Shown piece by piece: positions 6,231-62,474 of a DNA stretch of 64,000 nt. The stretch is taken from assembly GCA_037447655.1 (NCBI GenBank), contig JBBHKE010002909.1, positions 299,886 through 363,885 of the forward strand, read 5' to 3'. This DNA comes from Zygnema cylindricum (lineage: Eukaryota > Streptophyta > Zygnematophyceae > Zygnematales > Zygnemataceae). Under the pieces are notes generated by a model that saw nothing but the letters and a program-made list of their open reading frames with translations, did not search any database and had not been told where the DNA came from. Each line of letters begins with the position of its first letter. Position 1 is the stretch's first letter. The translations under genes were made by a program, and so were the position numbers.

Positions 6231-7026
6231 TTTAGTGGTGATGAACTCCTTCTCTTTGAAGCTGAGAGGATACTACTTCTGCGAAACAGTTGCCGTCTCG
6301 TCTATCAGGTTAATTTGGAAAGGATTTCCTTTTTAGATACCTAGATTTGTGTTTGACTAGCAGAACACCTGTTTTTTTCTAGACAAAAATTTGAGAGTTG
6401 GGCCTTTTGCTGATAATCTAACTTTTTCCCCGAGGTCAAATCCATTTTTCCTAGTTCAACTACTACCTAGGCTTTCGATGGTTGATCCTAGCTTGTGATA
6501 TCCAATCCCAGTTCCACCTGTGGGTCCACTTTCCCCCTGCCTGCTAGGACGCTAAATCAGACAACTTCAGCTAACGTGTCCCTTTCTCAACCACCGCTTC
6601 CCCCCACTGGAGAAACACTCGGGTGTTGAATGTGATATTTTCTCCTTCCTCTCCCCCCCTCAAGCAGTAAAGTTGCGTGCATTGCCAACAATTGGTGAGC
6701 TTGAAGGTAACTCCTCCTATATTCAAAGGACAAGAGACTTGAAAATGCAAAAGCATGTTTTACGACCCATATGATGGCAATTAAATCCATGCTTCGCCCT
6801 ATTTAGCTACACCTTTGGAGGTGTAACAATACATGGTGCGGCTGTGGTTTCCTGATAGAATCCCATGGCTTGTTCTCGTTCTGCAATTGTCTCTGTGGTC
6901 TAGGTTTTTTGTTACATAATCGAAGATCATTCACGTTGATCTTATCCGATATGCATGGATATGAGGAAGGGAAACCAACGTAGGAAGGACTCGACGCTAA
7001 AGTCCTAGCTTGTTACACCTTAAGAA
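6231..7026 (-). other. Gypsy-1 upstream region, possible protease remnant
   Basis: This lies upstream of the Gypsy-1 reverse transcriptase in the direction of translation. Short coding-like stretches such as 'VSCPLNIGGVTFKL' (6571-6756) and 'DWISQARINHRKPR' (about 6470-6500) look like parts of a retropepsin and its linker, but no D-S/T-G active site was found and stops are frequent. About 6790-7026 shows nothing recognisable. Confidence 0.35.
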
Positions 7027-7290
7027 TAAAACTCTGAGACCTCCATAGGTCCTCTAAGTAGCCATCTCACACAAAGCCTCTAAGATAACCATGATCCCAT
7101 TGTGTTTCAGCAAAATTAACTGTCACCTTGAAAGAGAAAAACTCCAACCAACATCACCCCTCTGATCAGAAGACTCTCTTGAGTCTATAACAAAAAGAAT
7201 CCGTAAATTTACTCTTCTGAGAAGAATGTTATGGCTTGTCAAAAATGACCTTTATATTTTAAATCTCTCTTAGAGAGAGGTACATCAATA
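7027..7290 (-). mobile_element. LTR-A fragment (first about 260 bp on the plus strand)
   Basis: 'aaactctgagacctccat' and the following sequence reproduce the beginning (as read on the plus strand) of the LTR-A family, then stop after 'cttagagagagg'. A complete LTR of the same family starts ten bases later, at 7300. The pair looks like a tandem partial LTR, left either by insertion beside an older copy or by unequal recombination. Confidence 0.7.
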
Positions 7291-27641: not shown

Positions 27642-30163
27642 CCCCCTCTTAGTCAACCGTGAGAAAGATATAAAAACAATTACCCGCTCCATTCGCAGTT
27701 CCCACAGAACCAGGTGCTGGAGGGTAAAGGGTGTGGCTCCCGGAGGAGGGGAGACAAGCTGAATGCCAACATTGACCACACTGATTGCAGACCAATATGT
27801 GGTGCAACTGGGAGGACTAATTGCAAGCTGATGAACAGGAAGGAGGATTGACAAAGTAAGTTAAGTGGAAAGTGGGTTTGTCTTCCAATCCCCGAAGTTC
27901 GCAGGGGGCCACATTGATCTGATTCTCTTTGATTTGTCGACCATCCTTTCCTTTCAATGTAAGAACCCATTTGTTAGAAACTTCAACCACTTTCAAAATT
28001 ACTCTCTCGGCAAAAATATCCAGCGTGTCCTTCTTCTATTGCATCCGATATACAAAGTCCCCCGGCATAAATTGTCGCTACCTGGGCACATAATTCTCGC
28101 TCCGGCGTTGAGAATACTACAACTGATCTCGGTGTTGAGCCGCCTGCAAATTGCTTATGGCGAGAGGCATCTCTCGGTGGAATATCTTGGCTCTGTTGGT
28201 GATCAGTTTTTCTACTATCCCCTGGTCATCCATCTCCGAGAGGACCACCGCTTGGGCCGATGCAGCCCCGGGCAAGATGGGATGCTGTCCAAATATAATG
28301 AAATAAGGGCTATAGGAGTGGAGGGAAGGGTGCCTGCTGAATCTGTAACCCATAGCAATCCAAGGCACTTTTCTGTCCCACTCCCCCAAATCTTATTCAA
28401 CTGCATATTTTTGTAGTGACCGTTTCAGTGTTTGTACGCACCTTTCGGCCAAACCGTCGGCTTGAGGGTGGTCACGGCTGGTCAACTGATGGTCGACTCG
28501 GCATTTTTCGAAGAGGTTGGAAAATTATCTAGCGAATTCGGAGCCTTGGTCGGTTAGGAATTCCGCAGGCGCCCTGAATTGGGCTTAAAACCTCTACAAA
28601 AAGTCATCTACAGTTGCCTTGGACTCCTTCCGAGGCCAAACCACCAACTCGATCCACTTGGGAAAAATGTTCTATCATGACCAGCGCGAAGCGGTTCCCA
28701 CGCATGCTGGTTGGAAGAGGTCCCAAAAGATCATAGACCACCGATAAAATATCCCCCTGATAGGAAGCGAATGGAGCTCAGTCCCCCCCTTTTTGTGAAA
28801 AGTTGCCTTAACTCGATCGCATGAGGAGCAAGTCTGCACAATTCGGTTGACTTGGGTCCGCAACCCATGCCACCTATAAGAGCCCGTAACCAGGGAAGTG
28901 GTCCGCTTTTGCCCGAAGTGTCCACATTCTCGATGGAGATTGGAAATCAAAGTTTCTAGGTCAAAGGGGGGAGGAACCACTTTCCTCGTGCCGTCTAACC
29001 ATTTCCAAAGGAGAACGCCTCTATCCCAATCATACGCAGCCATCCGCGTCTGTACTCGGGATAAGTGAATTCAATCAACTGGGGAAGAGGCGACCCTTGT
29101 TGGATAGATTGGAGAGCATCTAAGTCGTACCAAATGTCCTTCTGTCTAGCCCCTATGGGCGCCTGCCCCTCCACGTCGACCGAGAAAGTTGACAGTTCCC
29201 CTCCAGATTGGAGAAGCCAGATGAAAGCGGAGGATGCTCGAATGATCCCCACACTGATCTCAGGGTCCTCATCATGCCGAGCCCCGGTAGAATCCATGGT
29301 GGATGGATTAGGATTCCGGCTAAGTCCGTCGACATTCCCATGGATTTTCCCTACCATATGAACAATGTCGAAATCATATTCTTGCAAGATAAGAACCCAT
29401 TTGGCGAGTTTGCCGGTTAAATTACTTTTTTCCATGATCCATTTGAAGGGTTGGTGATCCGTAATCAGTGTGAAATGGACTCCGTACAAATAAGGCTGGA
29501 AATGCTGGATGGCCCAATCTGCTGCGAGTAACTCTCCGTGGTAACTGCAATAATTCCCCTTTGCTATGTCGTAGCTTCGGCTAGCGTAGGCCAACACATA
29601 TTAAGCTCCGACATCATCAACTTGAGCCAAAACCGCTTCCAATCCAAACCTGCTCCAATCAGTATAAAGAAGGAAAGGTCTCTGGTGATCAGGCATCCGG
29701 AGCACGGGGTGTTGCTTCAGAGCATACTTCAAGAACTAGAAGGAGATCTGTTGTTATTCGGCCCACTACCACTCTTGGTCCTTCCGCAATAGCTAGTTAA
29801 GGGGCTGGGCGTGAGTACTGAATTCCGGGATAAACCGTTGATAGTAATTGGCCAAACCGTGAAAGGTGCGAAGGGCCGAGATGTCTTGTGGTGGCGGAAG
29901 AGCGTTAAGGGCTGCCACCTTGACCATGTGGGGACCCACAATCTCGTGAGTCAACACATATCCGAGGATAATGATTTTCTGTACCCCAAAAATACCTTTG
30001 CCCGGGTGACATTTCAAGCTTGCTGCTTGGAGTGCCCGGAGAACGATATTGACATGCTCCAAGTGTTCCTCAAAAGTCTTTGAGAATATAATAACATCAT
30101 CAATATAGCACCGGGCACAATCGATTCCTCGGAGTGCTTCGTCCATTGCCTGTTGGAATTTGG
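27642..30163 (-). pseudogene. Gypsy-2 pol, 3' part: RT C-half, RNase H, integrase, PHD finger
   Basis: The minus-strand reading continues the RT begun at 34239-34574. 'FQQAMDEALRGIDCA' and the intact catalytic 'CYIDDVIIFSKTF' (about 30085-30125) are followed by the RT thumb ('ILGYVLTHEIVGP'). RNase H (28995-29597) is open for 200 codons, with 'LAYASRSYDIAKGNY' and 'ITDHQPFKWIMEK'. Integrase has 'HRECGHFGQKRT' and 'CSSCDRVKATF' (28675-29043), with the core and C-terminal part (28117-28680) in changing frames ('WAEAVVLSEMDDQ'-like region). A PHD finger closes it. RT joins perfectly in frame once the 30164-34238 insertion is removed. The RNase H and RT halves look recently functional; integrase is frameshifted. 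Confidence 0.88.
27695..27830 (-). other. PHD-finger-like domain at the C-terminus of Gypsy-2 pol
   Basis: Two minus-strand frames together show the finger: 'LVCNQCGQCWHSACLPS' (Cys pair, His and following Cys all present) and, after a one-base shift, 'SSTWFCGNCE' (the W-x-C-x2-C end). An upstream Cys pair 'CSSAC' is plausible. This copy supplies the Trp and Cys that Gypsy-1 has lost. It lies where chromoviruses carry a chromodomain. Confidence 0.65.
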
Positions 30164-31615
30164 TGTTGTTCTTTGGTCTAAAATAGACCGCAGAAGCCAC
30201 CCAAACTATCATGCAAAAAGCTAAGCGAAGCTAGGCCAATGAACAATCATTTGAAATGCATCCTCCATTTAACATACATGCATACACAGATGCCACACAC
30301 AGGCGGAGCAATCATCTGTACACAGACGGAGCAAGCATGCATACACAGCTGCATAAATAAAATTTAGGGTTTCATGAAAATCAGAAGAAACCCTAAGACA
30401 AATGCATAAATAATGCATATCAAACAAACATAAAATTAAAACATATAAATAATAATAAATGAATGCATCACAGATAAACGAAAGTATAATCAAATAATTG
30501 TATCACTTAAATGCATGACCTAATCGACAACCCTAAAAGTCTACATCTTTGGTCCCAACTTTTCTTAACAAGCATTGATGATACATTCCTAACAAAGCTC
30601 ATTCTTATATATACACTTGTGAGCTGTCAACAAATCACGAACTGTCAAAATATCCAACGTTACTTCCACTAAAACATAATATCCAATTAAGACAAAAATC
30701 CTAATTGGAAATTACGTAACTATCATTATATCCTATTCAACCATGATAACATACTATTAAAAATAAACTAATCCCAAGCATACACCTGAAAGTCAAGCAA
30801 TCGTAAGCGTACACTTGTCTGCAAATATGACACACAAATTAAATTGTCGAAATCCTAGTTGACCACATAATTATAAACATCATAGTCAACTCTAATTAAT
30901 TAATACACATACGACAAGAAAATGTTTCTTCAAATATTTACACCGACGCGTCCGCAAAATCCGGCCGCTAAGTGACAACTTGCTTAGTCACTTGTAGACG
31001 AAACCACGCAGTGAACCGACATCACAAAAGTACGGTCCACTTGATAATACGTCATCAAACAATGCGATCCCTTGAAAATATCAGCGGACGCCGTCCACCT
31101 TCCACTTCTAGCTCGAACCACTTGCCGAAATAAACTGTACCATCCAAATCCTGTCCGTACCGCGACCACTTACTTCGCCATAAATGCGCTTGTGAAATTT
31201 ACTTTACTCCAAAATAGATTCTCTGTACAATCGCGTACTTTCTATAATTGTCGCCTGCCAAAATTAAAGTACACGTGTCAAATAGGACGCTCCGTACCGG
31301 CGGCGTCCCTTTTTCATTAATGCGCCTGTCACATTATGTCTCGTACGACCAATGTACAATTTCAACCTTTCTAATATTTCACATCGGATCCCTTCGCGAT
31401 CCGCCGTCCATTTCTATTACGCATTCCGCGCCACTCAATTAATCTTTCATGTCCCTTTAATTTAACCTGCATATTTACTCCCCCAATCGGCAAATCTATT
31501 CGAACCACAACGTTACATCCGGTAATAAATTATGCACGCGAACACGCGTACGCAAGAAACATTTTGTACGCACGAAACGTCGCATACGCACGAAAATAAC
31601 TTTTCAAAAACAACA
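30164..31615 (-). mobile_element. LTR-2 element, 3' LTR
   Basis: 1452 bp from 'tgttgttctttgg' to 'caaaaacaaca', followed inside by a polypurine tract (AAATTTTCGGGGGAG on the minus strand). It is nearly identical to 32789-34238. The five bases before it, TTTGG, match the five after the second LTR. Confidence 0.95.
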
Positions 31616-34238: not shown

Positions 34239-34574
34239 TTTGGCCAGTGCATTCTTAAGCCCGAAGGACATGTAAATCCATTCATAAAGTGTGGAATCAG
34301 CCCAAAATGCAGTTCTCTCCGTGTGCTTCGGTTCCATGGCAATCTGGTGGAAACCATTATTCATGTCTAGGGTGGAATAGATAGTGGCGCCAACAAGAGA
34401 GTCGAATATCTCTTGTGGAGTCTGCATCGGATACTGGTCAGAGATGGTGGCCGTTTTGAGCATGGGATAATCTGTGCACATCCGAAAATCTACAGTCTTC
34501 CCGGATGAGTCCTTATTGGGAGGGAGAACTGTCGAGGAAGCAAACCCATGAAGTCCAGTACTTTCATGAACCAA
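34239..34574 (-). pseudogene. Gypsy-2 reverse transcriptase, N-terminal half
   Basis: The minus-strand frame includes 'FRMCTDYPMLKTATI', 'YSTLDMNNGFHQIAM' (first catalytic Asp region) and 'YMSFGLKNALAK', which continues at 30163 with 'FQQAMDEALRG'. The very start of RT is fused to the truncated methyltransferase upstream: a deletion seems to have removed the methyltransferase C-terminus and the RT leader. Confidence 0.9.
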
Positions 34575-34579
34575 TCGGG

Positions 34580-35267
34580 CTTACTCTGTGTGCTCTGGAT
34601 CCCATGTGTGCGGTGTCAAAAACCCAGGGAGCTCCTAAAATCCGTGTTATGTGATTCTAACTATCCTCAACCTGTTACATTTTATCATCTCCCGGGTTGA
34701 CATTTTCTAGAACGTACCCCACCGGTGTGTCCTCGTGCTGTTGAAGCCATGTGATTAATTCAATCATCCTGTGAAATGTTCCACTTTTGCGGTCTTGATG
34801 CCTTTTTCCTTGTCTTGCTAGGGAGTATCCTTGACAAGGCCAGCCTGCCAACACCAAATCCACCCTTCCCAAACTGGCTAGATGGGGCGCCATGATGTTT
34901 TCTACATTTTGGGGAAGACTTCAGTGAGCCGTGGAAAAGGCTTCACTAGAAACTGTTGAGGATATAGGTGATGAAGTTGGTGGAGGCGGTGGTCGGTGAC
35001 AGCCCGCGCCTCGGATGATATTTCTACGGCTGCGTATGACTCCACCAGATATGTTGTTTTCAAAACCGCTTCCAAATCGGAACTAATTCTCGAAAAGAGA
35101 GGAGAAATACGGAGTTCAGAATCGGGGGTTGCTAATGACACCACTTGTCGATTGAACTCCACGTTATCAGACTTGGGTGTGGAAGCATCAGACCTGGGTG
35201 TAAAAACTGCTTCCTTTAATGATAATGCCGAAAATGTTTTATCCACTCCGCGCCGGAGTTTTGCCAC
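34580..35267 (-). pseudogene. DNA (cytosine-5) methyltransferase domain inside Gypsy-2
   Basis: Between protease and RT of Gypsy-2 the minus strand encodes a C5-methyltransferase. A motif I-like start is 'LFSRISSDLEAVLKT' (about 35085-35130). The adenosyl-methionine pocket acid lies in 'YAAVEISSEARAV'. Motif IV is 'LVLAGWPCQGYSLA' with the catalytic Cys at 34834-34836. Motif VI is 'GYVLENVNP' with the Glu at 34705-34707. A motif VIII-like 'GSRAHRV' is near 34600. A one-base shift at about 34902 separates the first third from the rest, stops lie at 34672 and 34652, and the target-recognition region and motifs IX-X are deleted. The domain would transfer methyl groups to cytosine. It is in the same slot as in Gypsy-3, so it is part of the element and not a host gene. 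Confidence 0.85.
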
Positions 35268-35283
35268 GTGTAATAATCTATTC

Positions 35284-35870
35284 TTATATTCCTCTTCCCA
35301 CCGCTTGGAAATAGGGAATTCCTAGATTTCTTTTGCGATATCTGTGGAACTGCCGAACAGTTCCGTGAGAGATGAGGTAGTATACACCGGGTAGCAACCT
35401 GACAATGGGACATTTGTCTTCCCCCTGTTCCATAGATCCAAAGGAACCACCACTTTGGTACCCTCCGGATTTTCGGGGTCCCGAATGGTACATTGTTCCT
35501 TCCACACGCTCAAACTCATGTTGAGCCGGGTCCAAGCGGCCATTCCCAACAAAATTTCGAATTGAGTCCCTTCCACCACCAAGAACGGATGCTCAATTTT
35601 CACCCGTTGGCCTCCGTCATCAGAAAACTCGATTTCCATGGTCTTGTTTATTCCATAGTCTGGATGACTGCCGCTACTTACAGTGCTTAAGCAGGTATTG
35701 CTTGGGTAGATTTCGAGCCGGAGTTCCTCGGGCATTTTTTACAAAGCAGAGGTGGTAATGAGGTTGGGGAGCGCTCTGGTGTCGACCACACCGTCTTGGT
35801 ATCCCCCGTACCCGTTGAGCTTGAAGTTCATGGTTCGGTTCAGTATAAGAACCATTGATAAGGCTTTATA
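35284..35870 (-). pseudogene. Gypsy-2 aspartic protease
   Basis: The minus-strand frame has 'GVVDTRALPNLITT' at about 35750-35790, where the retropepsin D-T-G-A motif reads D-T-R-A (35772-35783), then 'FEILLGMAAWTRL' (the flap and ILG region) in 35322-35735. A stop lies just before 'MPEELRLEIYP'. The Gly-to-Arg change should abolish cleavage. It is immediately upstream of the methyltransferase. Confidence 0.75.
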
Positions 35871-36614
35871 GTCCCTATCCACTATAGGGGTTTTAAGGAT
35901 AGTTGGACAAAAAGACTGCGGTTGGCAGAGTGGTCCTGTCGACTCCCCTCTTTCCAGAGTGGATCTCCTCTCCCAATGCCTGAATGAGGATTTCTTCAGG
36001 CAGGTTGTGGGAGGATGCTAGAGTCTTCACGTGTGTGAGGGCATATAGCATGAGGTGCGGAACTAGCATGATAGCCGGTTTGGAGGAAGGAAGTGTTACT
36101 TTCGGCGAAGATGGGGAGGAGTTCGGTTCCTGCAGATCCTGATTTTGTCTTTTTTTCTCACTCTCGGAGTCGGAATCTAGGATTGGAGGTGTTTAAGGAG
36201 TGTCATACTTCGGGCGTTCTGCCATATATCTCTTAAACCAATCCTGATTGTTCTTTTTCTCTCGTCTCCGTGACTCCTTTCGCTGCTGTTTCTCGTTCTA
36301 GAAATTTTCGAAACTTGGAGGTAATTTAGGTTTGATTCCTAAGCCGATGTCGCTATTCAACATTACTACCCTGGGAGTAAATGACAAAGGCCCTGTAGCT
36401 TTCTGGTTGTGATCCCTCTGACCCATTTTTTTGCCTGTCCTATCTTTGCATCGAGGTGGAGTTGCGGAGTTGGCGGCGGCTGTCTCCCACCCCAAGATTC
36501 CAAGCTCTGAACGGGAAGGTTTGGGCATGGTGGGCATTTGGGGGTTCCAAATCCCAGCCCAATAAGTCGTCATCGTTGGCACCCGCTTTGCCTTGAAGCT
36601 CAAGCTTCCCTAGC
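35871..36614 (-). pseudogene. Gypsy-2 gag/protease linker
   Basis: The minus-strand coding-like frame contains 'GKLELQGKAGANDDDL' and 'LGWDLEPPNAHHAQTF' (36470-36610). It resumes beyond the LTR inserted at 36615-37835, where the preceding residues 'QKQKHELSEA' fit directly. Pro- and charge-rich, no domain recognised. Confidence 0.6.
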
Positions 36615-37835: not shown

Positions 37836-39754
37836 CTTGCTTCACTTAACTCGTGTTTTTGCTTTTGGAGTTGTTGCGATGCTGTGAGAGGAGCATGCTG
37901 GGAAGAAGATCCCAAGCAGAGGGCAACTAACTTTGCAGCCATTGCGGCCTGCTGCTGACTCTACGGCTGTATGATGATCTTCGGCGTAAGCTTGGCTGGA
38001 GCATCCGGGGCTCGCTCAGGTCTGTCTAGCGTGGACATAAGTTGGCGCCCCCAAGGGTAAAAAAGTTGGAGTGGGAGATGGTTAACAACTGTTTCTCCTT
38101 CTCTAGTAAACAAAGCAAATTGCATCATTTCCTTGGGTACTCCATTTTTTCGAAAACATTGCCCTTCCTTGTGCCCCTCAAATTTTAAAAGCTTTGCACT
38201 TGGCGCCCTCAGTGGTATATTTAATCTCGATTTTGTTGAAGATTTGAGCGTCATCAAACTTTGGAAGTTTGATTTGCCGCAATTGAGATTGGGACATCTT
38301 AGAGGTTTCGCTCTGTGGTGTTGGACGGTAAGTTTCCTTGGTTACCGGTGTCTTGTCCTCTCCCCTCCCTCCCTTGAGCTTTTATTGCTCTTTCAAGGTC
38401 CTTTCTGCACGTTCTTTCTCCCATTCCTTAAGTTTCAAAGCCAGCTCCGGTTTAAGTTTCCTGGTTGATTGGTTCCACCCATGACCCGGTTGCTGACAAT
38501 TCATGCAATTATAGAGAAATACTCGCTCATCTGCTCCCATAGCTGGTTCTCACCCGCTGTCAGCTACTTGCTTCCCTTTAAGCTTCCACAAAGCTTGAAG
38601 TTCAGCTTGTCCTCCTCATTCAAGGAGGTCTCCCCGGCGAATCCATTAAAATTTGCTTGGGCTTTGTCGGTCACGGCCTTCTCCCTTGCCTCATTGTGGA
38701 CGAAGTGGTCATAGAATTTCATTGCCACCAGTAAGATTTCCTTGGCGGAGGGATTGATGTCTTCAATTTCTTGTCCAGCAATCCAATTATCTATAGCAGT
38801 ATGCCTTGTCGTTCCGAATGAATTACGGACATCGATAAAGTATTTAATTGCCATCGCCAGAAGGTCAATCGTGGACAATTTTATTTTCTGACAAAAGCTT
38901 AAAAGTCGGTTGAAGAGAGTCTGGTGAGTCTCGTTATTCAAGCATCGGAATTACGTGAATTCCTTGATTGCGGACTCGTTTCTCTCTGTGTAGAGGAGTC
39001 TCCAGATGTTCAGCAGAGTGGTACAAGGGTTGGGATTAGCAACCATGCGAGTTGTTGCCTAGGCTGCCTGAATGGCTTGCAGCTGGTTTACATAAGCACT
39101 TCCTTGTGCCTGCAGTTTCATGTCATCTGTAAAGGTAGCAGTCAAAGGTGTCGCAGTCGCCGCAGCCAAGTCAGCCTTCGGTTGTAAAATTGCAACATCA
39201 AGGGCTGGATCCGAGATCTTAATAATAGGAGCCATCAAAAGAGGTTGACGCTTCTTGTAATCCGCCAACGCCCCTCCAGAAAGGTAGTTGACCATCATGG
39301 GGAAGAGTGTGTTCTCGAAGTCATCCGGAATGGCTCCTCCCTGATACTTATTAATTTCGGCTTGTGTGAAAGATTTCCACAACAACGCGAAATGCGAAAA
39401 TGTGATCCTCGAGCTATCTCTGGTAAAGATCCGGATATCCCCATTTCCTTTTCTTCCTCTGCACGGTTGGTGAAATGGGAAAAGGAAGGCCCGCTGGGGG
39501 TGACAAACTGAGCCGGCGAGATGACTCCCGTATTCTCTTCCTTGGGACCGGAACCGTGTCCTCCTCCGGTAGAAGGGGCTTCCCGGAGAGGTGTGGATCC
39601 CCCTCCCACAGAAGAAGTACTAGCGCCTCAAAATATGGTCGGAGGAAGGATATTCCCCACTTCTCCTCTATATGTACAAACGCTGCCAGTTTCTAGAGGT
39701 GGCCGCTACGTGGCCGCCTCGGGTTGCCTTACATCTATACCTCGAGGATGAAAA
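37836..39754 (-). pseudogene. Gypsy-2 gag
   Basis: Minus-strand fragments in changing frames. 'MLWKSFTQAEINKYQGG' and 'MAPIIKISDPALDVAI' lie at 39059-39385. A capsid-like helical region, 'NRLLSFCQKIKLSTIDLL' and 'TTRHTAIDNWIAGQEI', lies at 38564-38941. Near 38485-38525 is a degenerate zinc knuckle, 'CMNCQQPGHGWNQ', whose last Cys is lost. A Pro/Gly-rich N-terminus is at 39295-39609. It continues past the solo LTR at 39755 into 40947-41242. Confidence 0.7.
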
Positions 39755-43840: not shown

Positions 43841-43894
43841 CCCCCCCAGCTCCTTAGCTTGCAGGGAGCTAGGAAGGACAGCTGGTAGGTTGCA

Positions 43895-44029
43895 ACATCC
43901 ATGGCAAAACCACCGTCTAGCCCGAATAACGTGCAAAGGTGGGACCAAGCACCCCATGTGAAATCATAGATTGCAATAGTCGCAGAGAACCATCGTCGTT
44001 TCTCCATCAGACCGCTGACACAACTGACA
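43895..44029 (-). other. PHD finger at the C-terminus of Gypsy-3 pol
   Basis: The minus-strand frame gives all eight zinc ligands of a C4HC3 PHD finger: 'ECQLCQRSDG', 'MVLCDYCNL', 'FHMGCLVPPL' and 'RWFCHGC'. The only defect is a TGA between 'CNL' and 'FHMGC', where PHD fingers usually have Trp (TGG). PHD fingers bind histone H3 tails, most often by Lys4 state. The domain follows the integrase and lies in a different frame from it. Confidence 0.85.
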
Positions 44030-45480
44030 CTCGGTGGCCTCGGTAATCGGCATCCGCCACGGATACATACTGTGGGAGAAATCAGGCAGGTAGCAGGGGG
44101 CAAAAAATTTCGAATGTTATCGCAAAGTCCACGTGTCGGCCCCTTGTAGGCTTAATAATCCATTGGAGTCGATTTTGGTGATCCTCAATATGTGAGACGA
44201 GACATCCGTGTCAAGTGTGTCAAATGTTTGCCGACGCAAATATACATAGTCCCCACCCGATAGGGTTTTTGTTGTGGCCGGTAACTGCCACTGCGAGTTG
44301 TTGCAAACTATAAGGAGTCGCGATGTTGAGCAATCTGCAAGTTTTCAAAGGCCATTGGAATTTCCCTAGCAAAAAGCAAATCCCGGTTGGTTAGTTCTTC
44401 CAGAAAAAGAGAATTAGACATAAGCAGCAAAGGAAAACTAGCAGCTTTATGTATATTTCTACCGAGCAGTGGCTGTCTTCCAAATAACACATAATAGGGA
44501 CTGAAATTTGCTAAGCTGGCCTGTACACACATGCGATAACCCATGACAATATAACCCAATGATTCATCCCACACAGTAATTTGTTTCTCGAAGCAATGTT
44601 TAGGCAAAGTCCACTTAAATGTTTGCACCGCCCTCTCGGCCAAAACGTCTACTTGGGGATGATCTCGACTTGTTCGACGGTGATGGATCAACGCCTCGTC
44701 CAACATTTCTTGAAATTCGCCACGGAACTTGGTCCCCTTGTCCGTAAAGACTTCTGCTAGAGCTCCATATCGGAGGAGCACATGCTCATTCAAAGCGGCG
44801 GTGGTGAGTTTTGCAGTTTTGTGTGGGAGGGCCACAACTTCCACCCATTTGCTGAAATTCTCGATCATGATAATGAGGTATTGCTTGCCTTTTCTTGAGA
44901 TGGGAGAAGGACTTGCCAGATCACACGACCACTTGTAGAAAAGACCTTGGATAGGCAAAGGTTAAAGTGTAGTTTGACGGTTAGAGAAAGAGGTCCGCAA
45001 CCGGTCACATGTGCTACATTCTTGTAACACGGCCGCAACCTCCGCCTGCATGAGTGACCACCAATAACGTGCCTCTACCAAACTCAAAGTATGTTTAGTA
45101 CCATAATGTCCTAGATTAGTATGAATCTGATCGATAAGTGATAGGCGTTTTGTCGGCCGAGGAAAATGCCGATGACTTCCATCTGCGAGGAGACGGATAA
45201 AGGAACCTCCCATCCATAAGTAATTTTTGAGCTCTTTTACAAACACGCCCCTCCTCTCGTGGTGTGGTGCCTGTTCGAAAGGACTGGGTGGATAAAAATA
45301 GGACCAGAGCGCTGTCCCGCCATGGATCGAGTTTAGTTTTGTGAACTGTGGGACCCAAAGAACTATAGACTTGGTGCGCTCTAGCACACAGCGATGCAAG
45401 TGGTTCGTCATCAAAATCCTGTCGCACTCTATTATTGCCAGAATTAGGTAAGGGGTTTCAGGAAAGACCGACGGCATTCA
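44030..45480 (-). pseudogene. Gypsy-3 integrase
   Basis: One minus-strand frame from 45477 to 44308 with a single TAA (44959-44961). The HHCC finger is 'HTNLGHYGTKHT' and 'CSTCDRLRTSF'. The core has Asp in 'YKWSCDLASPSP', Asp in 'EVFTDKGTKFRGEF' and Glu in 'DVLAERAVQTFK', so all three catalytic residues are present. The C-terminal 'FLEELTNRDLLFAREIPMA' follows. About 44030-44307 links to the PHD finger. It inserts the cDNA into the host genome. Among the three gypsy copies this is the best preserved integrase. Confidence 0.9.
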
Positions 45481-45914
45481 AATTGAGGAGCCCCGGTCGA
45501 TGGATGATCTCCATATCATATTCTTGCAAAATAAGAGCTTAGCGGGCTATCTTGCCGAATAGTTTGTCATTGGTCAGGAGCAAATGCAATGGTTGATGGT
45601 CAGTAAGAAGAGTAAAAGGTTTGCCATAAAGGTAATGGCGGAAATGCACAATTCCCCAAAGTGCGGCCAGGCACTCCCCCTCATAACTACTGTAGTTTGA
45701 CTCTGCTTGATTGTTGCTTCGACTAGCATAATTCACCACATATTCCTCACTTGTAAGCTCACACTGAGTTAGGACGGCGGCGATACCGGGCTTACCAAAG
45801 TCTGTCTGTAGGCAAAATGGTAACTTATGATCTGGTGGATGGAGAATCGGAGCGGTGGACAGTGCCTTCTTTAATCCCTAGAATGCCTCAATCTGCGGGG
45901 GTCCCCAAGTAAAC
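45481..45914 (-). pseudogene. Gypsy-3 RNase H
   Basis: The minus-strand frame reads 'FTWGPPQIEAF', a TAG, then 'LKKALSTAPILHPPD', 'FCLQTDFGKPGIAAV' (catalytic Asp), 'YVVNYASRSNNQAE', 'EGECLAALWGI' (Glu) and 'LLTDHQPLHLLL' (Asp). It continues RT directly once the solo LTR at 45915-46946 is removed. Confidence 0.88.
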
Positions 45915-46946
45915 TGTAGAAATAAAAGGTTATTCTAGAATTTTCTAGGTTTTGCAAAATGCAGAAAAGAAGCCGAGGCAGTCTGCCTCTAACTTCTCTC
46001 TTCAGCTCCCACACTTGTCGTAGTCACTGAAGGTTGAAGAGGGAGCTAGAGCCATGGCTGCCTATGCTGATAAGAGATAGAGTTATGGGTTGTAGATTTT
46101 GGTAGATTTACCAAAATAGAAATTGACGGACCGTGGATTTGAATTTGGTACCTACCGTTCGTCAACATAGCCGGTAGCAATAGCCAGTTAGTCTGGCATC
46201 ATGGTTGGACATATAGGGTTTCGTAATTATTTAGATGTTAACACGTAGCCTATTTTCATTCAACATAATATTTAGACATAGATACAGTTGTAATGTATGG
46301 CCACGGAACTTCCGAAACGGATACCGCGCATTTTGTTTCGAAGGGGAAACAAATAATGCGCAAGTATTTATGACGGCCACAATTGTAATCCGACTTCATT
46401 GGACGGCCACAAAGCATGCCGAGATCGCGGAATGAGTTTTTGGCGGTTTATGGTCGACGTCACATCAATTACCACGTGGCACAATCACATTGGATTTCGG
46501 CATCTTTGGGGATTCCGCGAACGAATCCAAAAACGACATGTGTCGACATGTTGGCCATGTTGTACAATGGCCGTACACAAAGTACATCGGCACATGTACC
46601 TTTATGTACGATACACTCTTATAATTGGTGCCGTACTTCAGTAGATAGAGTTTTAAAGAGAGATAGGACTTAGAAACTTTTGATAGATTAGACCATCGCT
46701 CCCAGAGAGCTGCTGTACAAAAGGTCAACTTTGACCCTTCATAACTTACTGCTCAAGGGAGAAAATTCAAAGATTCTTTTTGCTATTGACTCAGGGGAGT
46801 CTTGCCTTTACAGGGGTGAAGGTGGTCAGAGTTTTTGTTTGCCAGGGTGGCATTTATTCTTGCTGAAACACAAAGGGGTCACGGTTATCGTAGAGGCTTC
46901 GTGTGAGCTGCCTACTTTGAGGTCCTATGGAGGTCTCAGAGTTTCA
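45915..46946 (+). mobile_element. Solo LTR-A in Gypsy-3, no 5-bp target duplication
   Basis: 1032 bp, 'tgtagaaataaaagg' to 'cagagtttca', of the Copia-3 subfamily. It splits Gypsy-3 between RT and RNase H. Flanks are TAAAC and CGACG. The reading frame is restored if only a single shared C is removed, so the usual 5-bp duplication is absent. Confidence 0.9.
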
Positions 46947-48224
46947 CGACGCTGATTTTTTCAAGAGTTCATTTAGTGGGGATGCGAGTGTGCTAAACCC
47001 AAGAAAAAATCTCCGGTAATAATTAGCCAAACGTAGGATTGCACGCAAGCTCGTTAAATCGGTTGGGGCCAGTAGTTTGATGATCGCTTCTACCTTGGCT
47101 TTTAGCGGAGTAATTCCCTCGGATGAGATAAAATGCCCGAGATATGGTACACCTTCAGCCTGGAAGATGCATTTGGCAGGATGGCATTTGAGACCCACCC
47201 TTTTCAACTCTTTTAATACCCATTCTATATGTGCTGCGTGTTCCTCTATAGAGGCTGAGGAATGATTAAATCGTCAATGTAGTAACGGCCAAACTTACAT
47301 CTGCCTAAGATTGAGTCCATAACCTTTTGGAATACGGCCGGTGCATTTTTCAAGCCAAAGGGCATAACTGACCATTCCCAACACCCATCACTTCCCCAAA
47401 ATGCAGTCTTATGTCGATCTATCTCCTCTATTTCAATTTGGTTAAACCCGTGTCATAGATCCCGAATGTTGAAATGTTTAGCCCCTCCGACGTGATCAAA
47501 AATTTCCTCTGCCAAAGGCATTGGATGTCGATCCTGGATTGTACGGGAATTCAGTTCTCGATAGTCCCAACACATGTGACGTTTTGTGAAATTCCCCTCT
47601 GCGTCTTTTTTACGAGGCATGACGGTAGGCGCCGCAAAGGTGGAGTCGTACCTATAAAGCAGTCTTGCCTCTTTTTACTCTGCGCGTCGTTTGTCGACTG
47701 CTTCCCATTTGGTTTCTGATAGATGATGCTTAGGTTTGAATATGGATCTGTCATCTTCCAAGTCAATGGACATTCTGTACTGGTGTGTCGACCCAAATCT
47801 TTTATGGAGTAAGCGAACGCGTCTTGGTGTTGGTTTATGACTCCATTTAACAGTTCGTGTTCTGGTTTTGTTAGTCCCGTCCCAAATTTCCATGTTGGTT
47901 TGTCAGGTGCATTGATGGTAATGGCTTCCATGGCGTGTGCAAACGCTAGCTGCTCATCCGCGACTAAAGACTATCCCAACTTATACTTAATTGGGAGCTG
48001 ATGCAAACAATTTACTGCATGATGCCAACTTCTAGATGGAAATGCAGCTGTCTAGTATGAGATTGCGCGTACTGGTATCGGGGATCTAGTCGCTGTGTAT
48101 AATAGAATGGACCAACTCATGTGACTAGGTTCGAAGAAATTGTAAATAGTATGATTTGTGTCAAAATTGGCGGAAGGAGGAAAAAGAAAGAGCTGATAAG
48201 TTGTACCCCGGAGAGAAGGTGAGA
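46947..48224 (-). pseudogene. Gypsy-3 reverse transcriptase and leader
   Basis: The minus strand carries the leader 'HELLNGVINQHQDAFAYS' (47800-47931), RT fingers, 'MPFGLKNAPAVFQKVMD' near 47310-47365, the catalytic 'FGRYYIDDLIIPQP' (about 47262-47300), and the thumb 'GLKCHPAKCIFQAEGV' with 'YLGHFISSEGITPL' at 46944-47207. Several frameshifts are present. The sequence differs enough from Gypsy-2 to be a separate gypsy lineage. 47940-48224 is a linker to the methyltransferase. Confidence 0.88.
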
Positions 48225-49565
48225 ATTTAGAAGCAGTGTGTTTGAATGGTGTATTCCCCCCCCCAACTCATTGAGACGGATGGTTCTGTGTGTATCGACC
48301 GGCTGCAAACCATATGCCTAAGACAAAGGACAGGGATTGAGGATCCATAACCCGACCAAGTAAGGTGCAACGCTGCCGCTCAGTGAGTTATGGGACAGCG
48401 GTAGTGCCTGGGATGAAATGGAGTAGGAGTCCTCGCTCCGGTGCAGTACGTTCTACTAGACTGCTTGTATGAGTGTTTTGAAGCATATCAGGTCCGTTAT
48501 GTGAATATGCATGGGAGTTTGGATATGCGACTAGAGTAGGAAGTGCACGTAATGGTTGGCCAGGGGTGTTAAGACAAAATGCAGGAGGATAGTCTGTCTG
48601 GACACATGTTTGGACTTTATGAAATGGAAGAAGTGCTTCTTGAATAAAAAGTTTAGGTGGATGGACAACGAGGTTAGCTTCTCGGAGCTGGCCTATGTCC
48701 ACTAGAATATTCCACTTAGAACGAACCCGGTGGGCCAGCGACCCATGACGTGCGACATCGATTATTAGTGGTGGTCCAATTAATGATTCGATATGTTTGT
48801 AATTTGCGAGAACCGTAGGTTGGGGGTCATTATGAGCCGCGATGTTTTCTAAAACGTATCCAAAAGGACGGTTCAGCGACTGAAATAAATGGATAAGACG
48901 CACTTCCTCAAAAAACAGTTTAGTGCGCGAAGTGATAGACCTAAACCCTTTCCAGCTCTAGACATACCTTGACATTCCCATCCTGCGAAAAGGAGATCGA
49001 TTCGTTCTAACTGCGCTAGGTGGTGATTTGTTATGAGACGGGTATCCTGTGGTAAAGCTGAATGCGTCTAACCAAAAGGTCAATATCTAGAGAATAATAC
49101 TGCTTGATTAGAATACCGTTTCTAAGGCATAAGAGAAGTGAGGTACCTATTCATGCAAATAGGTCTAAGATAACAAGACCGTTCGAATTAGGTTGTAAAC
49201 TGACTGGATTCCATTTAATCGGCATAAACCAGGAAGGATATTTTGAAATCGCGGGTGGATCCGGAAGACAGAATAAAGGAATCGGTACCGTAAACTTATA
49301 CAATCTATCAAAATCTGAAGAGTCAATAATAAAACCTGGGGTGCCAAATAATTCCGGCGTTTTCAGGAGTTCTGGTAAGATTTCATCCGTTGTTAAAGAT
49401 TCAAGAATATCAGCACGTATGCCAACTATAGCATTGGCTTGCAAGACAAACGCCAAATGAGCCGTAGTAGGCATGGGTTGCCGGGGCGAGATAAGAGGTA
49501 AGCAAACTTTGCGATTTGGAAAATTGTTAGGTCGATACGAAAATAATTGATCATGCATATCAACC
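48225..49565 (-). pseudogene. DNA (cytosine-5) methyltransferase domain inside Gypsy-3
   Basis: A full-length C5-methyltransferase fold can be followed on the minus strand. Motif I is 'LVILDLFA' then a TGA (49151-49153) where Gly is expected, then 'IGTSL'. A motif II-like acid is in 'YYSLDID'. Motif IV is 'IDLLFAGWECQGMSRAGKG' with the catalytic Cys at 48972-48974 (the preceding Pro is Glu). Motif VI is 'FGYVLENIAAH' with the Glu at 48847-48849. Motif VIII is 'GSLAHRVRSKW' near 48715. 'LPTLVAYPNSHAY' begins the return from a short target-recognition region. Motif IX is 'ERGLLLHFIPGTTAV' and 'LTERQRCTLLG', and a motif X-like 'VGGGNTPF' is near 48250. The domain lies in three frames with several stops. 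An unassigned 130-residue segment (49154-49565) precedes it and was cut from gag by a solo LTR. Confidence 0.88.
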
Positions 49566-50759
49566 TGAAACTCTGAGACCTCCATTGGCCCTCAGAGTAT
49601 GCAGATCCAAAAGAAGCTAATCTAGATAGTGCCGACTCCAAGTTAATATAAACCCAAGTGACTGACCCCTTGACAGTCAGAACCCCAATATAGATTCACC
49701 CCTGTGAAATAACACTTTCTGTGTGCTCAGTTCCACCACAGAATGCAAAGTTAGAATATGAGATTTGGACACATTCACCCACTTTGACTTTCCCTTAGAA
49801 ATGCAGCCACCCTGGCAGACAAAAACTCTGACCGACTACACCCCTGTGTAGCGTGGACTCCCTTGAGTCCGCAGCAAAAAGAATCACTGAAAATGGTCAA
49901 GTAAATTGATAGTTATGGCTGCCCAAAGTTTGCCATTTATACAGGGTGCTCTCTAGGAGAGGCAGCTGCCTACCCAAAATTTATCTAAGTCCTATTCCCT
50001 CTCTAAAACTCTATCTACTGAAGTACGGCACCAATCAAATTACTGTGTCGTACAGAAAAGTACAGGTGCCGGTGTACTTTATGTACGGCCATTGTACGAC
50101 ATGGCCAAAATGTCGACACGTGTCATATCCGGATTTGTTCCCGTAATCTCCGAAGTTGCCGCAATCCAATGTAGTGTTACCACGTGTCACTCAATGTGGC
50201 GGTGATCGCAAACCGCCAAAATCGTACGCCGCGATCTCGGCATCCTTCGCGGTCGTCCGATCAAATTTGGATTTCAATCGTGGCCGTCATAAATACCTGC
50301 GCGGTATTCTTTCCGGCGTCAAACAAACCGCGCGGTATTTATTTCGTAATCGTACCGTACGTCGTACTTTCCACAACTGTTTCTATGCAGTATGCATATA
50401 GTTCTAGTTAAATGAATTATTCTTATTGTATTTATTTAAATAAATATCATACCTCGTAATATCTAATACAATTTAGACTATCTGGATAAGACTACCGGCT
50501 ATTGCGGGTGTGACAAGTGGCAGGTACCAGGATCAAATCCTGGACCTGGCAAAACTATCTTTTACAGAAAACCCCCTATAAAACAACTGTCTGTCTCCCT
50601 CTAGACAGCACAGGCAGCCATGGCTAACTCCTCCTTCAGTCTTCAGTGACTGCGACAAGTGTGGGGACTTGAGGAGGAGTTAGAGGCAGGCTGTCAATAT
50701 CTACTATTTTGCTTTTTATTTTGCAATCTCTAGACCTAGAAAATACTTGAATTCCAACA
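49566..50759 (-). mobile_element. Solo LTR-A in Gypsy-3
   Basis: 1194 bp, 'tgaaactctgagacc' to 'attccaaca'. Flanks CAACC and CGTAA do not match, so either the duplication has decayed or sequence was lost at one side. It carries the T-arm-like palindrome at 50521-50543 and the conserved hairpin near 50625-50685. Its end supplies an ATG to the adjoining methyltransferase fragment. Confidence 0.9.
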
Positions 50760-52135
50760 CGTAATGACCTGTTTGATTGTAGTGAGTACACGTGGCTACC
50801 TTGTGTGGACAACTGCGTGCGTCGTGACCACTGTGACCGCACCGAAACATATACGCCCTCCAAACGTCGTTGGTAAAGATCTCATGGCGGGGACCCTTGG
50901 AGGTCTTGGGTTGGGCCATGGGTTGCGCGAGTTAGGATTCTGTTTAGGATTTGGATTAGGGTAATCTTTAGGTGAAGGTTTTGGCCGCTCGTGAGCGCCC
51001 CACTAGCTGGTCTGCATTTCGTACTTTACAGCATACTCTGCAGCTTGCTCAAAAGTGAATTTAAGGCCATATGCTTCGGTCAAACAGTTCTGAATGAACC
51101 GTCAAGATTGTGTGGGAAATTGACCGACAAACTTTTGTACCGCCTCAGCCTCTGACATTAGATCCGGTAGGGCCTCATGCAAAGTTTCCATACGTGATCG
51201 CAATGCTGGGGTTGTTTCTTCGGATTTGCGTTAAAAAATCATTAATCCTTTGACTTTGTCAGGATTTTGCATTCGTTACTTGTCCTGTAACAAATCGAAA
51301 ATTAACGAGATTGGATCTCTTAGGTGGACCAGCATTTCAGGTCTAGCCGGAATTGCAACCCTAGCTGCCACTGCAAATTGATGAGGGACCTCAGGTATTT
51401 CAGGTGAAACTTCGTTGCCTGCAGAGTCATAAACTGCCGGGACAGCAGGTTAGAAAGGAATTTCGGGGCTGCCTATTATGGCTAAAGCTCCAGAATAGGC
51501 GGGTGCTATTTTGGTCAAAGCACAAATTTCCTCGTATTTCCGTGTATAAAGGGATAGGGCAGATCCTCTGAGGTATCTCCTTAGTAAAGAAAAAGCGACC
51601 CGCAGATCGTAACAGTTTTGGTACCAAAACGCAAGGTCACGCATTTCGGTATTGAAAAGCATGCGAAAGTGGGACAAAGACATGGTGTCCTTTAGACCAG
51701 AAAATTATAAATGATGTTTACCACCTTCGGTGTCCATAGACGAGCCATGTCCACGCTGAAAGGACTGTGATTAGTGTGTATGGTACTGCCCACTGAGAAA
51801 ATTGACGGTGGTAAACTTAGACCCTATATGACAAGCGAGTCGGTGTCCCAATCTTCCCTCGAATTGTGGGTGAAAGATGAAGAAACAAACGACGTAGACC
51901 TATGGAGAGAAGAAAGACGAGATCTCGACTGATTAGATGATCCTAAAAATGGAGACTGAACTGCTGAGTTTGGAAAAGATATCGGAGGGGAGCCGGCCAT
52001 AATCAATCCTTTGGGCGACCTTCGGTAAGCACTTGAGCTTCTGGTGGTACCAGCCGAGAACTGTAAATTATTCAAGTCCGTTGGCATGTAACCAAAAGAT
52101 TGTCCTATCCGGATGCAGCTAAATGCCGAACACAC
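50760..52135 (-). pseudogene. Gypsy-3 gag
   Basis: The minus strand holds a capsid-like stretch 'MSLSHFRMLFNTEMRDLAF', 'RVAFSLLRRYLRGSALSL' and 'KYEEICALTKIAPAYSG' (51427-51683), and two degenerate zinc knuckles 'FRCGHSGHDARSCPH' and 'CTHYNQTGHYV' (50760-50860), each missing one Cys. A Ser-rich N-terminal frame is at 51824-52135 ('GSSNQSRSRLSSLHRSTS'). Many stops. No D-S/T-G protease site was found between here and the methyltransferase. Confidence 0.75.
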
Positions 52136-52713
52136 ACAAAAGTATGATAATCACCGCAAACGAGACACACCACGCAGTTCGGTCTATCCTGTATCACCAG
52201 AGTTAGTCTACTCGTAAACTGTCTTTTTCAATCCCACTCATGTCACGCCATGCTAAGCAAACTCATGTCACCTATGCAAGGCCACTTGCGACCAGATATA
52301 ATAAGCAGGAAACTATTCAGGGCCACCACGGTCAGATGTAATAAAGTAGGAAACTGTTCAGGGCCAACACGGCCTGATGTAATAAAGCAGGAAACTATTC
52401 AAAGCCACCACGGCCAGATGTAATAAAGCAAGATACTGTTAATCAATACCGATCAAGGTCAAATCTACGACCATGCAACGATGATGTCATATGTGAAAGG
52501 AAAACGCAGCCTTCGGTAAGATATCTAACCCTCTAAACGAGTGCGCTTGATAACCTATATCGCGCCTGCACCCACAAGGATTAGTTGCTCACCTAAATCG
52601 ATAGCATCCAGTAGGATACCTTAAATATTCCCCATCGATGCTCCACTTCCAAGTTATCGTAATCACACCAGCGCTCAATGCCAAAGTAGTTAGTAGCCTG
52701 TTAGGGTACACGT
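52136..52713. other. Upstream region of Gypsy-3, possibly its 5' LTR or leader
   Basis: Non-coding. It contains the tandem repeat at 52280-52443. No LTR pairing with the 3' side could be made by eye. Confidence 0.35.
52280..52443. repeat. 41-bp tandem repeat, four units
   Basis: Units start at 52280, 52321, 52362 and 52403, each of the type 'ggccaccacggtcagatgta' followed by 'ataaagcaggaaactattcag'. The units differ by a few substitutions and the first and last are the most diverged. Repeats of this size are common in LTR or leader enhancers of gypsy elements. Confidence 0.92.
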
Positions 52714-60491: not shown

Positions 60492-61457
60492 CAAGTAACA
60501 ACTTTAAGCCACGCTCTACCCAACTATTAAAGCAATAAAAAATTTATTTGATTATTCGTGCAAGCTAAGTTATATATATTTAAATTTATATATTTTTTTT
60601 TTCTAGGTTTTTAATATGGATATTTTTTTTTATAAGTTTTTAGGTTTGCTAGGTTTTCTGAGTGAGTTAATCCGGTAGGTAGATAGAAAGAAAAAACTAT
60701 GCTGGATTTATAGATAAAATCAACAATATCCAACTCACAGCCCAACAAGCAATGAAACCCTAAAAATTGAGAATGAAAACAGATTAGAGCAATCCAAAGA
60801 AAACAACAGACTGGAAAAGATAACAAAAAAACTTATTAATGCTTGACTGAAAAAGAAAGACAAATTACAGCACGGGAATATTTGCGACAGTAGCCACTAG
60901 GCCTTACAGTCTTCAATATTCCTTTCAAGAGTCCAACTAGCGGACAACAAACTCTCCTTAACCGGATAAGACCTCCGAGAAAACTGGCATTCCTAAAGTC
61001 AGAAGAAAAAGGAGACAAAAGACGAAAACCACGCAACAGCAATAATAAAACACGAGATTCACACTCCAGAATTCGCAGAGCACGACAAGTGAGACAGAGT
61101 CTGGAGGGAAACCTTGCAGGCTGGCTTGCGCGGGTAGATTAGGTGAGGACTTAGTACAGAAAAGAGAGATCAGAAAAGCTCTGAGAAAACATCTAGCCAA
61201 AGACTAAGGATCCAGAGAGAGAAACCCTAACTCAACAACCAACTGATCCTAAATATCCGCAGAGAAATGCTAACTGAAAAAAAAAAGAGGTTCGACAAAT
61301 CCCGAGAATGTAGATTGCCAGAAAACGACAACTCTACAATGTTGGATTCCCGTGTTGTAATTTGCAACTAATCCTACGCGGCCTTTTAGCCTTTATCCTA
61401 TGATGTCGCCTATCGTAGAGCTACACTAATTTCTATATGTCTTCGAGCAAGCAACTT
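60492..61457. other. A/T-rich sequence without recognised genes
   Basis: Contains T-rich tracts around 60590-60640 and A-rich tracts around 61280. Minus-strand frames of 68-80 codons (60611-61200) are hydrophobic, have no family signature and are treated as chance. Confidence 0.45.
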
Positions 61458-62474
61458 TCTATGTACAAAAGCTGCCAGTTTCAAGAGGTGGCCGCTACAT
61501 GGCCGCCTCGGGACGCCTTACATCTACACCTCGAGGATGAAAACCCTCCCTACGCAACAAAAATAATGCATCAACCTCCGAGGGTACACGACTTGGACAT
61601 GTGTCAGGTATGTAACCGTTTGAGTCCATAAGATGTTTGGTTTGGAGTCGTTCGAATTTGCAAAATCTGATGCCGTACCACAATTTGATTTCATGCCGCT
61701 AATATGGTATGACCTCCGTTCCCTCTGTATCTTCAACTGAACACTCCGCCACCTGACCTGTAGTATTCTGTTAAACCTTAATTAGTATAAGAATTAACAA
61801 TAATACTCGCGGACGTCTTGCGGCATTACATGCTTTACGCTCGATACCCCCTTCTCCTCTACGGGGTCACGAAGAGGTACTTCCCCGAAAGGTTTGCTAG
61901 CTGCGGTGTCGTGAGAGGAAAATGGTGGGGGGCGAGAATAGGGAGCTCTCTGGGACCGGTTCTGCACCGTTTTTGAAGAGCCACTCTCTCAAGAACTGCT
62001 CAAAATCTCCACCACCCCTCCTACGGGTCTAACCACTCTGACTTGATCTGTCCGAGCCACTCTCTGTACCAACTCTTTTTTCACTCTTAGCTCATGGAGG
62101 TCGTGAAGGGCAAGAAGTTCCTTACGACCTGGGCGATGTGGATCCGTCAAAACCGCGGGGTCAATCTAGATCTCGGCCTGGGGAGTCTTGGATCTAGTGT
62201 GGAGCCCGACCTCCGGAAGAGGACCCAAATGGGGCTCCCTTTGTGCTTGACGCTTTGGCCGGGCCTTGGGAGACACTCGGCTCCTCTCCTGAGCCTGAGC
62301 TCAAGCTTCCTTCCTTTCCTCAACATAGGTCTTCGCGGCCTCCGCCAAGGAGGGGTAATGTTTGAGAGTCAGACTTGGAGGAAGAGGAGGAGAAAAAGCA
62401 CTACCTAGTTCCTTGGTTGGAGAATCAAAGACAGACTCCATGAGTTTTGACTCTTGTGACATCTGAGACTTTTC
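61458..62474 (-). pseudogene. Gypsy-4 gag-like region, downstream part
   Basis: 61458-61830 repeats the R segment of Gypsy-2. Between 62040 and 62469 the minus strand is open with few stops and strongly charged: 'KLMESVFDSPTKELGSAF', 'KHYPSLAEAAKTYVEERK', then a TGA, then 'RVSPKARPKRQAQREP' and 'LLALHDLHELRVKKELV'. The frame continues upstream of the solo LTR at 63684-63757. No known domain was recognised; the link to R makes a gypsy gag most likely. Confidence 0.5.

Follow-up and report, generated by a model that had tools for sequence, protein, structure and literature searches.

A cytosine methyltransferase inside a gypsy polyprotein

Why would a retrotransposon carry a cytosine methyltransferase, when its hosts silence retrotransposons by the same mark? 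The window analyzed here—64,000 nucleotides of Zygnema cylindricum DNA—raises this question at positions 49564 to 48304 of the minus strand. On tblastn matches to a related polyprotein and on motif reading, this stretch (48304–49564) is the decayed C5-methyltransferase (DNMT) domain, with its preceding linker, of a dead gypsy element copy belonging to what we call family A. A sequence-only reading had listed a set of DNMT motifs here, and they are indeed present, in the order and on the strand claimed. Motif I reads DLFA (49165–49154) and runs into a TGA (49153–49151); motif IV reads GWECQG (48966–48983), with Glu replacing Pro before the catalytic Cys, as seen by motif reading and in the motif table and codon counts; ENI lies at 48849–48841 and AHRVR at 48735–48721; and the C-terminal block ERQRCTLLGRVMDP stands directly 3' of a TAA (48390–48388), all read from the minus strand. 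The motifs fall in three different frames; the gene is thus broken by two or more frame changes as well as by the two in-frame stops. Chance does not account for the set, since tblastn against the uninterrupted family-A polyprotein of another locus (L009:1535-8719) gives 73% identity over residues 811–982, 66% over 1003–1063, and 71% over 1035–1462. The proposed check with the Pfam profile PF00145 came out differently for the window and for its kin: four window pieces gave no DNMT match and one unrelated weak match (E 0.19), while all seven relatives scanned were recognized (E 6.5e-14 to 1.8e-10).

Relatives in the same genome

How widespread are such elements in the genome from which the window comes? 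We searched the same assembly (352.8 Mb in 2689 contigs) in two ways, each returning first-look places, rather than copies, of which part were scored. A PF00145 profile search gave 782 candidates, of which at least 123 were scored, all 123 above the curated cut-off; a search with the 189-aa open reading frame of the window gave 1323, of which at least 150 were scored (the window included), the weakest at 59% identity (E 7.1e-67). About 54 of the 123 PF00145 places were inspected, and 53 are copies of elements of three families, A, B, and C, while one (L007) is host-like.

The longest frame, that of L009, runs for 2395 codons without a stop in the order gag–protease–DNMT–reverse transcriptase (RT)–RNase H–integrase–PHD finger, which bears out the claim of a gypsy element whose Pol includes the methyltransferase, downstream of gag and upstream of RT. 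In this frame five domains exceed their Pfam cut-offs (DNMT, RT, RNase H, integrase, and PHD); the CCHC knuckle falls below its own, and a protease motif of the DTGA type can be made out by eye (in L015, also a family-A frame, Pfam reports an aspartyl protease, again below cut-off). According to Pfam, the family-B frames of L011 and L012 carry DNMT–RT–RNase H–integrase, with PHD below cut-off, and the family-C frame of L020 carries DNMT–RT–RNase H. Wherever Pfam resolves the full Pol order (L009, L011, and L012), it is RT–RNase H–integrase with integrase last, as in Ty3/gypsy elements. The L009 element, the one measured for this feature, is bounded by a direct pair of long terminal repeats (LTRs) of 931 bp that are 100% identical (TGTCATGC...CGCAAATA); it therefore moved recently, unless the assembly merged its LTRs. 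Its flanks hold no obvious short direct repeat. A 243-base stretch preceding the 3' LTR recurs (99.6%) right after it (L022 and the end of L009, contig C1344), which is either a tandem arrangement or an assembly slip.

The PHD finger that ends the L009 Pol matches those of PHF12 (E 5.5e-16), BAZ2B, lid/KDM5, PHF21A, AIRE, and UHRF1, named here from the best 60 of 84 PDB chains under E 0.001. Several such fingers read unmodified H3K4, as does the ADD domain of DNMT3; Pfam finds neither a PWWP nor an ADD domain in L009. That Pol ends in a PHD finger appears to be new for elements of this kind.

Type of methyltransferase

To which type does the element enzyme belong? By sequence it is DNMT3-type, the type being assigned by comparison with solved structures. 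A profile of 14 element sequences finds DNMT3A first in the PDB (76.6 bits, E 1.5e-20), ahead of HaeIII (37.1 bits, E 1.6e-8), HhaI (E 6.2e-8), DRM2 (E 1.3e-7), DNMT2 (E 1.2e-6), and DNMT1 (E 0.074), and single-sequence searches also place DNMT3A first for family B (E 2.8e-14) and family A (E 1.3e-10). The sequence-only reading had taken GW-x-CQG to set the enzyme apart from the DNMT3 type; the distance between 76.6 bits for DNMT3A and 37.1 for the best non-DNMT3 chain does not support this. Its further suggestion of a distinct clade fares better, as the Glu-Cys form recurs throughout family A (see below). Similarity to DNMT3A is strong over motifs IV–VIII and weak at motif I (12.2 bits) and over the C-terminal block (3.9 bits). 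It is with this C-terminal block that ERGLL..GTTAV, previously read as motif IX, weakly aligns; a better candidate for motif IX is an LPTL-type stretch upstream of it. The NCBIfam dcm superfamily model stayed below cut-off in the three proteins tested.

The one host-like place, L007:1498-1800, has a 100-aa open frame in which 83 residues, GGPPCQG among them, match PF00145, and is probably, judged by its sequence, an exon of a chromomethylase-like gene of the host. Such an exon fits a genome of the green plant lineage. Its best PDB matches (E 8.1e-28) are 9mvy, 7ubu, 4fsx, and 4ft2, listed as 'DNA (cytosine-5)-methyltransferase 1'; the last two we take to be maize chromomethylase ZMET2. No A-, B-, or C-type DNMT or RT was matched in this 3.2-kb locus. 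Nine short stretches, chosen as candidate host exons, turned out without exception to belong to B or C elements, ten copies in all.

Could the window then hold a host methyltransferase gene, or chance motifs, beside an unrelated gypsy element? The lack of a Pfam DNMT match in the window pieces would suit this idea, but DNMT and RT share single open frames, several of which also include gag or integrase, and the host-type exon is quite different, so that we regard it as already refuted and its survival as hardly conceivable. Outside this genome, pattern matches in a viral collection held up in 1 of 3 and 1 of 17 cases, on the same contig, and the protein there is ordinary and Dcm-like (29% identity); among prokaryote genomes, none of 21 pattern matches was confirmed.

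Three families and the residue before the catalytic cysteine

The three families of DNMT-bearing gypsy elements are, on their sequences, apparently new. Measured on one representative per family, DNMT identity is 42% between A and B, 40% between A and C, and 59% between B and C; the corresponding RT values are 55, 54, and 82%. This shared ranking fits a single capture of the domain followed by common descent. A tree built from 18 DNMT rows recovers every family as a single group, with support that is full or good, and the grouping of B with C is a matter of distance, since there are three groups and a midpoint root.

The families differ at motif IV. In family A—repeat fetches of one place counted once—Glu precedes the catalytic Cys in 33 of 33 distinct places examined, including the window copy, while B and C have Pro there in 29 of 29 (19 places and ten further copies). 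We know of few, if any, C5-methyltransferases in which this Pro is missing, and the Glu-Cys form is apparently new. The residue preceding the Glu is Trp in 30 places, Ser in two, and a stop in one. The Glu codons themselves vary (22 GAA and 11 GAG), as do those of the neighboring Cys (TGT/TGC) and Gln (CAA/CAG). Other catalytic residues are retained: the motif-IV Cys and the EN of EN(V/I/M) in 33 of 33 family-A and 19 of 19 B/C places, and the RxR of motif VIII in 28 of 33 and 19 of 19, the five exceptions all being copies with stops. Element copies share ancestry, and such counts do not represent independent events.

A conserved stop ahead of DNMT and Pol in families B and C

How do families B and C express their enzyme? 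In all 19 alignable places (20 rows, with L006 and L012 counting as one place and L025 and L065-L073 outside the set), the frame of the protease continues in register into that of DNMT-Pol, interrupted by a single stop. This stop is TAG in 17 of the 19, among them the second, B-like copy of the window, and TAA in two diverged ones (L027 and L040). The six bases after it are CAATTC in 16 of 20 rows, and the residues QFPIS that follow it directly are common to both families. A stop separating gag and protease from DNMT and Pol is apparently new.

Frame register and conservation suggest that the stop works in a readthrough-like manner, and readthrough, as at leaky UAG sites of viruses, would be the simplest reading. 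The type I readthrough motif is UAG CAR YYA (PMC11166343); the context here, UAG CAA UUC, departs from it by ending in C instead of A. This mismatch in the last base would favor an alternative in which the stop is not read through and Pol starts at an internal AUG or is made from a spliced mRNA, as would an early Met, at residue 18–19 and thus before motif I (72–73), in six of seven B copies checked. In four C copies, however, the first Met after the stop comes at residue 96 (three copies), past motif I at 82, or at residue 79 (one copy), shortly ahead of it; an internal start would thus be possible for B and less so for C. Together with the register of the two frames in 19/19 places and the shared QFPIS, this leaves the alternative improbable in our view.

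Selection and the fate of the family-A enzyme

Has the domain been kept functional? The DNMT domain has evolved under purifying selection, as judged from NG86 estimates on the 15 of 22 full-length domains that are free of stops. For family A, three of 15 pairs have dS between 0.05 and 2 and give dN/dS of 0.15–0.20 (median 0.155); 11 returned no dS, with dN of 0.11–0.17 and differences at 61–69% of fourfold sites, so that synonymous sites are near saturation; and one nearly identical pair gives 0.32. All ten pairs of family B fall between 0.13 and 0.42 (median 0.26). In family C, five of six pairs have a median of 0.20, one of them at 0.51, and the sixth stands at 1.38 with a dS of 0.007. The choice of open copies favors low dN/dS, and the diverged pairs are the stronger evidence. 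For RT, one B pair gives 0.08 and three close A pairs give 0.28, 0.34, and 1.14 (the last at dS 0.004), while L009 and L015 differ by a dN of 0.064 and at 73% of fourfold sites. Between these same two A lineages the dN of DNMT is 0.168, which indicates that the DNMT domain is less constrained than RT.

Do the elements bear a trace of CG methylation? Among the transitions separating L009 from the window copy, there is no clear CG excess and thus no clear footprint on family A: the C strand shows 40 of 234 at CG, 31 of 235 at CHG, and 116 of 722 at CHH sites, and the G strand 47 of 235, 48 of 236, and 65 of 593, respectively. CpG observed/expected ratios, taken over whole 9.9-kb stretches with flanks included, are 0.88–1.07 in five A loci and 0.59–0.69 in three B loci and one C locus.

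What, then, would these elements do with a methyltransferase? On balance, we favor reading the window copy as a dead member of a Ty3/gypsy lineage whose Pol carries a DNMT3-type domain between protease and RT and a PHD finger after integrase, and whose enzyme would act during retrotransposition. The polyprotein would be packaged with the element RNA; the methyltransferase, placed beside RT on the new cDNA, would modify that cDNA or else chromatin at the integration complex; and the PHD finger would help to choose the insertion site. In B and C the enzyme sits behind the in-frame stop and would be made by readthrough, setting its dose relative to Gag, and in A it lies within one continuous frame, with Glu for the motif-IV Pro. 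The architecture of the elements, the relationships of the families, purifying selection, and the conservation of Cys, EN(V/I/M), and mostly RxR are established from the sequences themselves. Several observations count against an active writer: a Glu beside the nucleophile may lower or change activity; family A has no clear CG footprint; DNMT is less constrained than RT; family C has pairs with dN/dS of 0.51 and 1.38; and five of the 33 A places have lost RxR. The related Klebsormidium nitens domain, for which no methylation was detected in yeast, also counts against it, although its authors regarded that test as inconclusive (PMC5890265).

Selection on the family-A Glu-Cys pair is argued for by synonymous turnover and dN/dS together, rather than by copy counts. 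One tentative proposal, which we would call possible though not probable, is that family A encodes a C5-methyltransferase of changed chemistry or substrate, in which the Pro-to-Glu change was ancestral and has been kept by selection across lineages whose synonymous sites are near saturation, in an element with at least 150 scored places. If so, the enzyme would represent a working variant of the DNMT3 active site and not a plain CG writer, with a possible role on a cDNA:RNA hybrid, on RNA, or in a step other than CG methylation, and its Pro-Cys sister families B and C, under readthrough control, would offer a contrast. A selected change of this kind at motif IV would surprise a methyltransferase enzymologist.

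Family A might instead no longer methylate at all, its domain being retained for nucleic-acid binding or for the structure of Pol while B and C are true enzymes, much as DNMT3L is a pseudo-enzyme beside DNMT3A. The replacement in all 33 A places of a Pro that B and C hold in 29 of 29, and that is to our knowledge near-universal, speaks for this; the Cys and EN kept in all 33, and RxR in 28 with every exception in a stop-bearing copy, speak against it. The synonymous codon turnover at the Cys, moreover, indicates selection for that residue, whereas a pseudo-enzyme ought to have lost its nucleophile. We therefore hold such a pseudo-enzyme to be rather unlikely, although a serious contender.

More doubtful still is action in trans, whether on host chromatin (to silence competitors, or at the insertion site) or on RNA, and not on the element's own cDNA. 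The PHD finger of Pol, with its best PDB matches among chromatin proteins, would agree with this, and RNA and insertion-site roles of retrotransposon DNMTs are discussed in PMC5890265; the position of the domain inside Pol next to RT, and hence with the cDNA, argues the other way.

Relation to known systems

Is the combination new? Gypsy elements with a Dnmt3 in Pol are a kind already known: KnitGypsy-Dnmt3 was described from the charophyte Klebsormidium nitens (de Mendoza et al. 2018, PMC5890265), and such elements are also mentioned in PMC6338049; DNMT-bearing retrotransposons appear as well in PMC12344493, which calls the LTR elements Copia. By its published description, KnitGypsy-Dnmt3 resembles the present elements in being an LTR gypsy with an intronless Dnmt3-type domain in Pol under purifying selection (PMC5890265). 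Its repeats are described as DIRS-like, whereas the LTRs of L009 are a direct pair of 931 bp and its stretch contains no inverted repeat of at least 40 bp, and the main text of that paper contains neither 'PHD' nor 'readthrough.' The absence of detectable methylation by the K. nitens domain in yeast was judged inconclusive by its authors, which leaves the activity of gypsy-element DNMTs undecided there (PMC5890265). SymbioDIRS-Dnmt3 of dinoflagellates, which methylated CG de novo in yeast, also has a Dnmt3-type domain in Pol beside RT, but it belongs to the DIRS class, has a tyrosine recombinase, and represents an independent capture according to the authors (PMC5890265). Among open-licence PMC papers, in which Glu-Cys was not sought by name, we found none reporting the Glu-Cys form, the stop before DNMT-Pol, or the PHD finger in such elements; some of these features may also occur in the K. 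nitens elements.

Compared with vertebrate DNMT3A and DNMT3B—the best sequence match, chiefly over motifs IV–VIII—the element domain has GW[P/E]CQG instead of GGSPCN at motif IV and some 20 extra residues between motifs I and IV, and L009 lacks PWWP and ADD by Pfam but ends its polyprotein in a PHD finger. Chromoviruses, the chromodomain gypsy elements, likewise end their integrase in a chromatin-reader module, there a chromodomain and here a PHD finger. The present elements lend themselves to direct tests: the genome has three or more related families with many long open copies, a contrast between Pro-Cys and Glu-Cys, and a putative dosing stop.

Layout of the window

How is the window itself arranged? 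By tblastn and blastn it holds three broken DNMT-gypsy copies, one of family A and two B-like, with all element parts on the minus strand. The family-A copy begins with an LTR remnant at 61623, ends near 43.6 kb, and is interrupted by a nested copia-type element (~53.9–59.9 kb) and two copia-type LTRs. Its 5' LTR remnant (61623–60879) and a piece of 5' leader (60872–60495), found by blastn at 73 and 83% (60495–61623 together), are separated by the nested element from the leader and gag (50759–52713), which has broken frames, CCHC-like knuckles near its 3' end, tblastn support, and 80% blastn identity to L009 1037–2973. The protease segment (L009 2974–3963) is missing, and a copia-type LTR (49566–50758) stands in its place between gag and DNMT, recognized by repeats common to the LTRs at 53.9 and 59.3 kb and by a gap in the L009 alignment. 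RT follows the DNMT domain at 46953–47803 (tblastn 82–86%). The second copia-type LTR, inverted and on the plus strand with approximate ends (45917–46946; inverted repeats I1-I5 and a gap in the L009 alignment), separates RT from RNase H and integrase (44200–45913; tblastn 80–81%, open reading frames at 44308–45477). The C terminus of Pol, which includes the PHD finger (43865–44269), is 83% identical by tblastn to residues 2258–2392 of the L009 polyprotein, in which the PHD lies at 2338–2382. LTRs in both orientations had made us suspect a DIRS-like inverted-repeat structure for the gypsy copy, an idea rejected because these LTRs are common to the copia-type element at 54–60 kb. The LTRs of that element, which was delimited by eye from open frames, are 97% alike over the 300 bases compared, and related sequence lies at about 42.6–43.2, 45.9–46.9, and 49.6–50.8 kb of the window.

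The second copy, B-like, comprises gag (38135–39669; tblastn 53–55% to the L012 gag frame), the protease region (35325–36141; 61–75%), the in-frame TAG between protease and DNMT at the site kept in B and C (35322–35324; junction alignment), the N-terminal two thirds of the DNMT domain (34543–35321; 54–62%), and, past an insert of ~4 kb, the rest of RT with RNase H and integrase (27748–30227; 76–79%). The insert, in RT at 30.2–34.2 kb, has a strong GC skew of -0.32 to -0.35 and a GC content of 0.37–0.38. The third copy, also B-like, extends over 3393–7035 and retains a C-terminal DNMT piece (7035–6828), RT, RNase H, integrase, and the PHD end (tblastn 51–75%). In family A, the leader before gag contains tandem repeats, at L009:1318-1445 and at 52303–52440 of the window; their spacing is 41 and 36 bases in L009 and 41 and 41 bases in the window copy.
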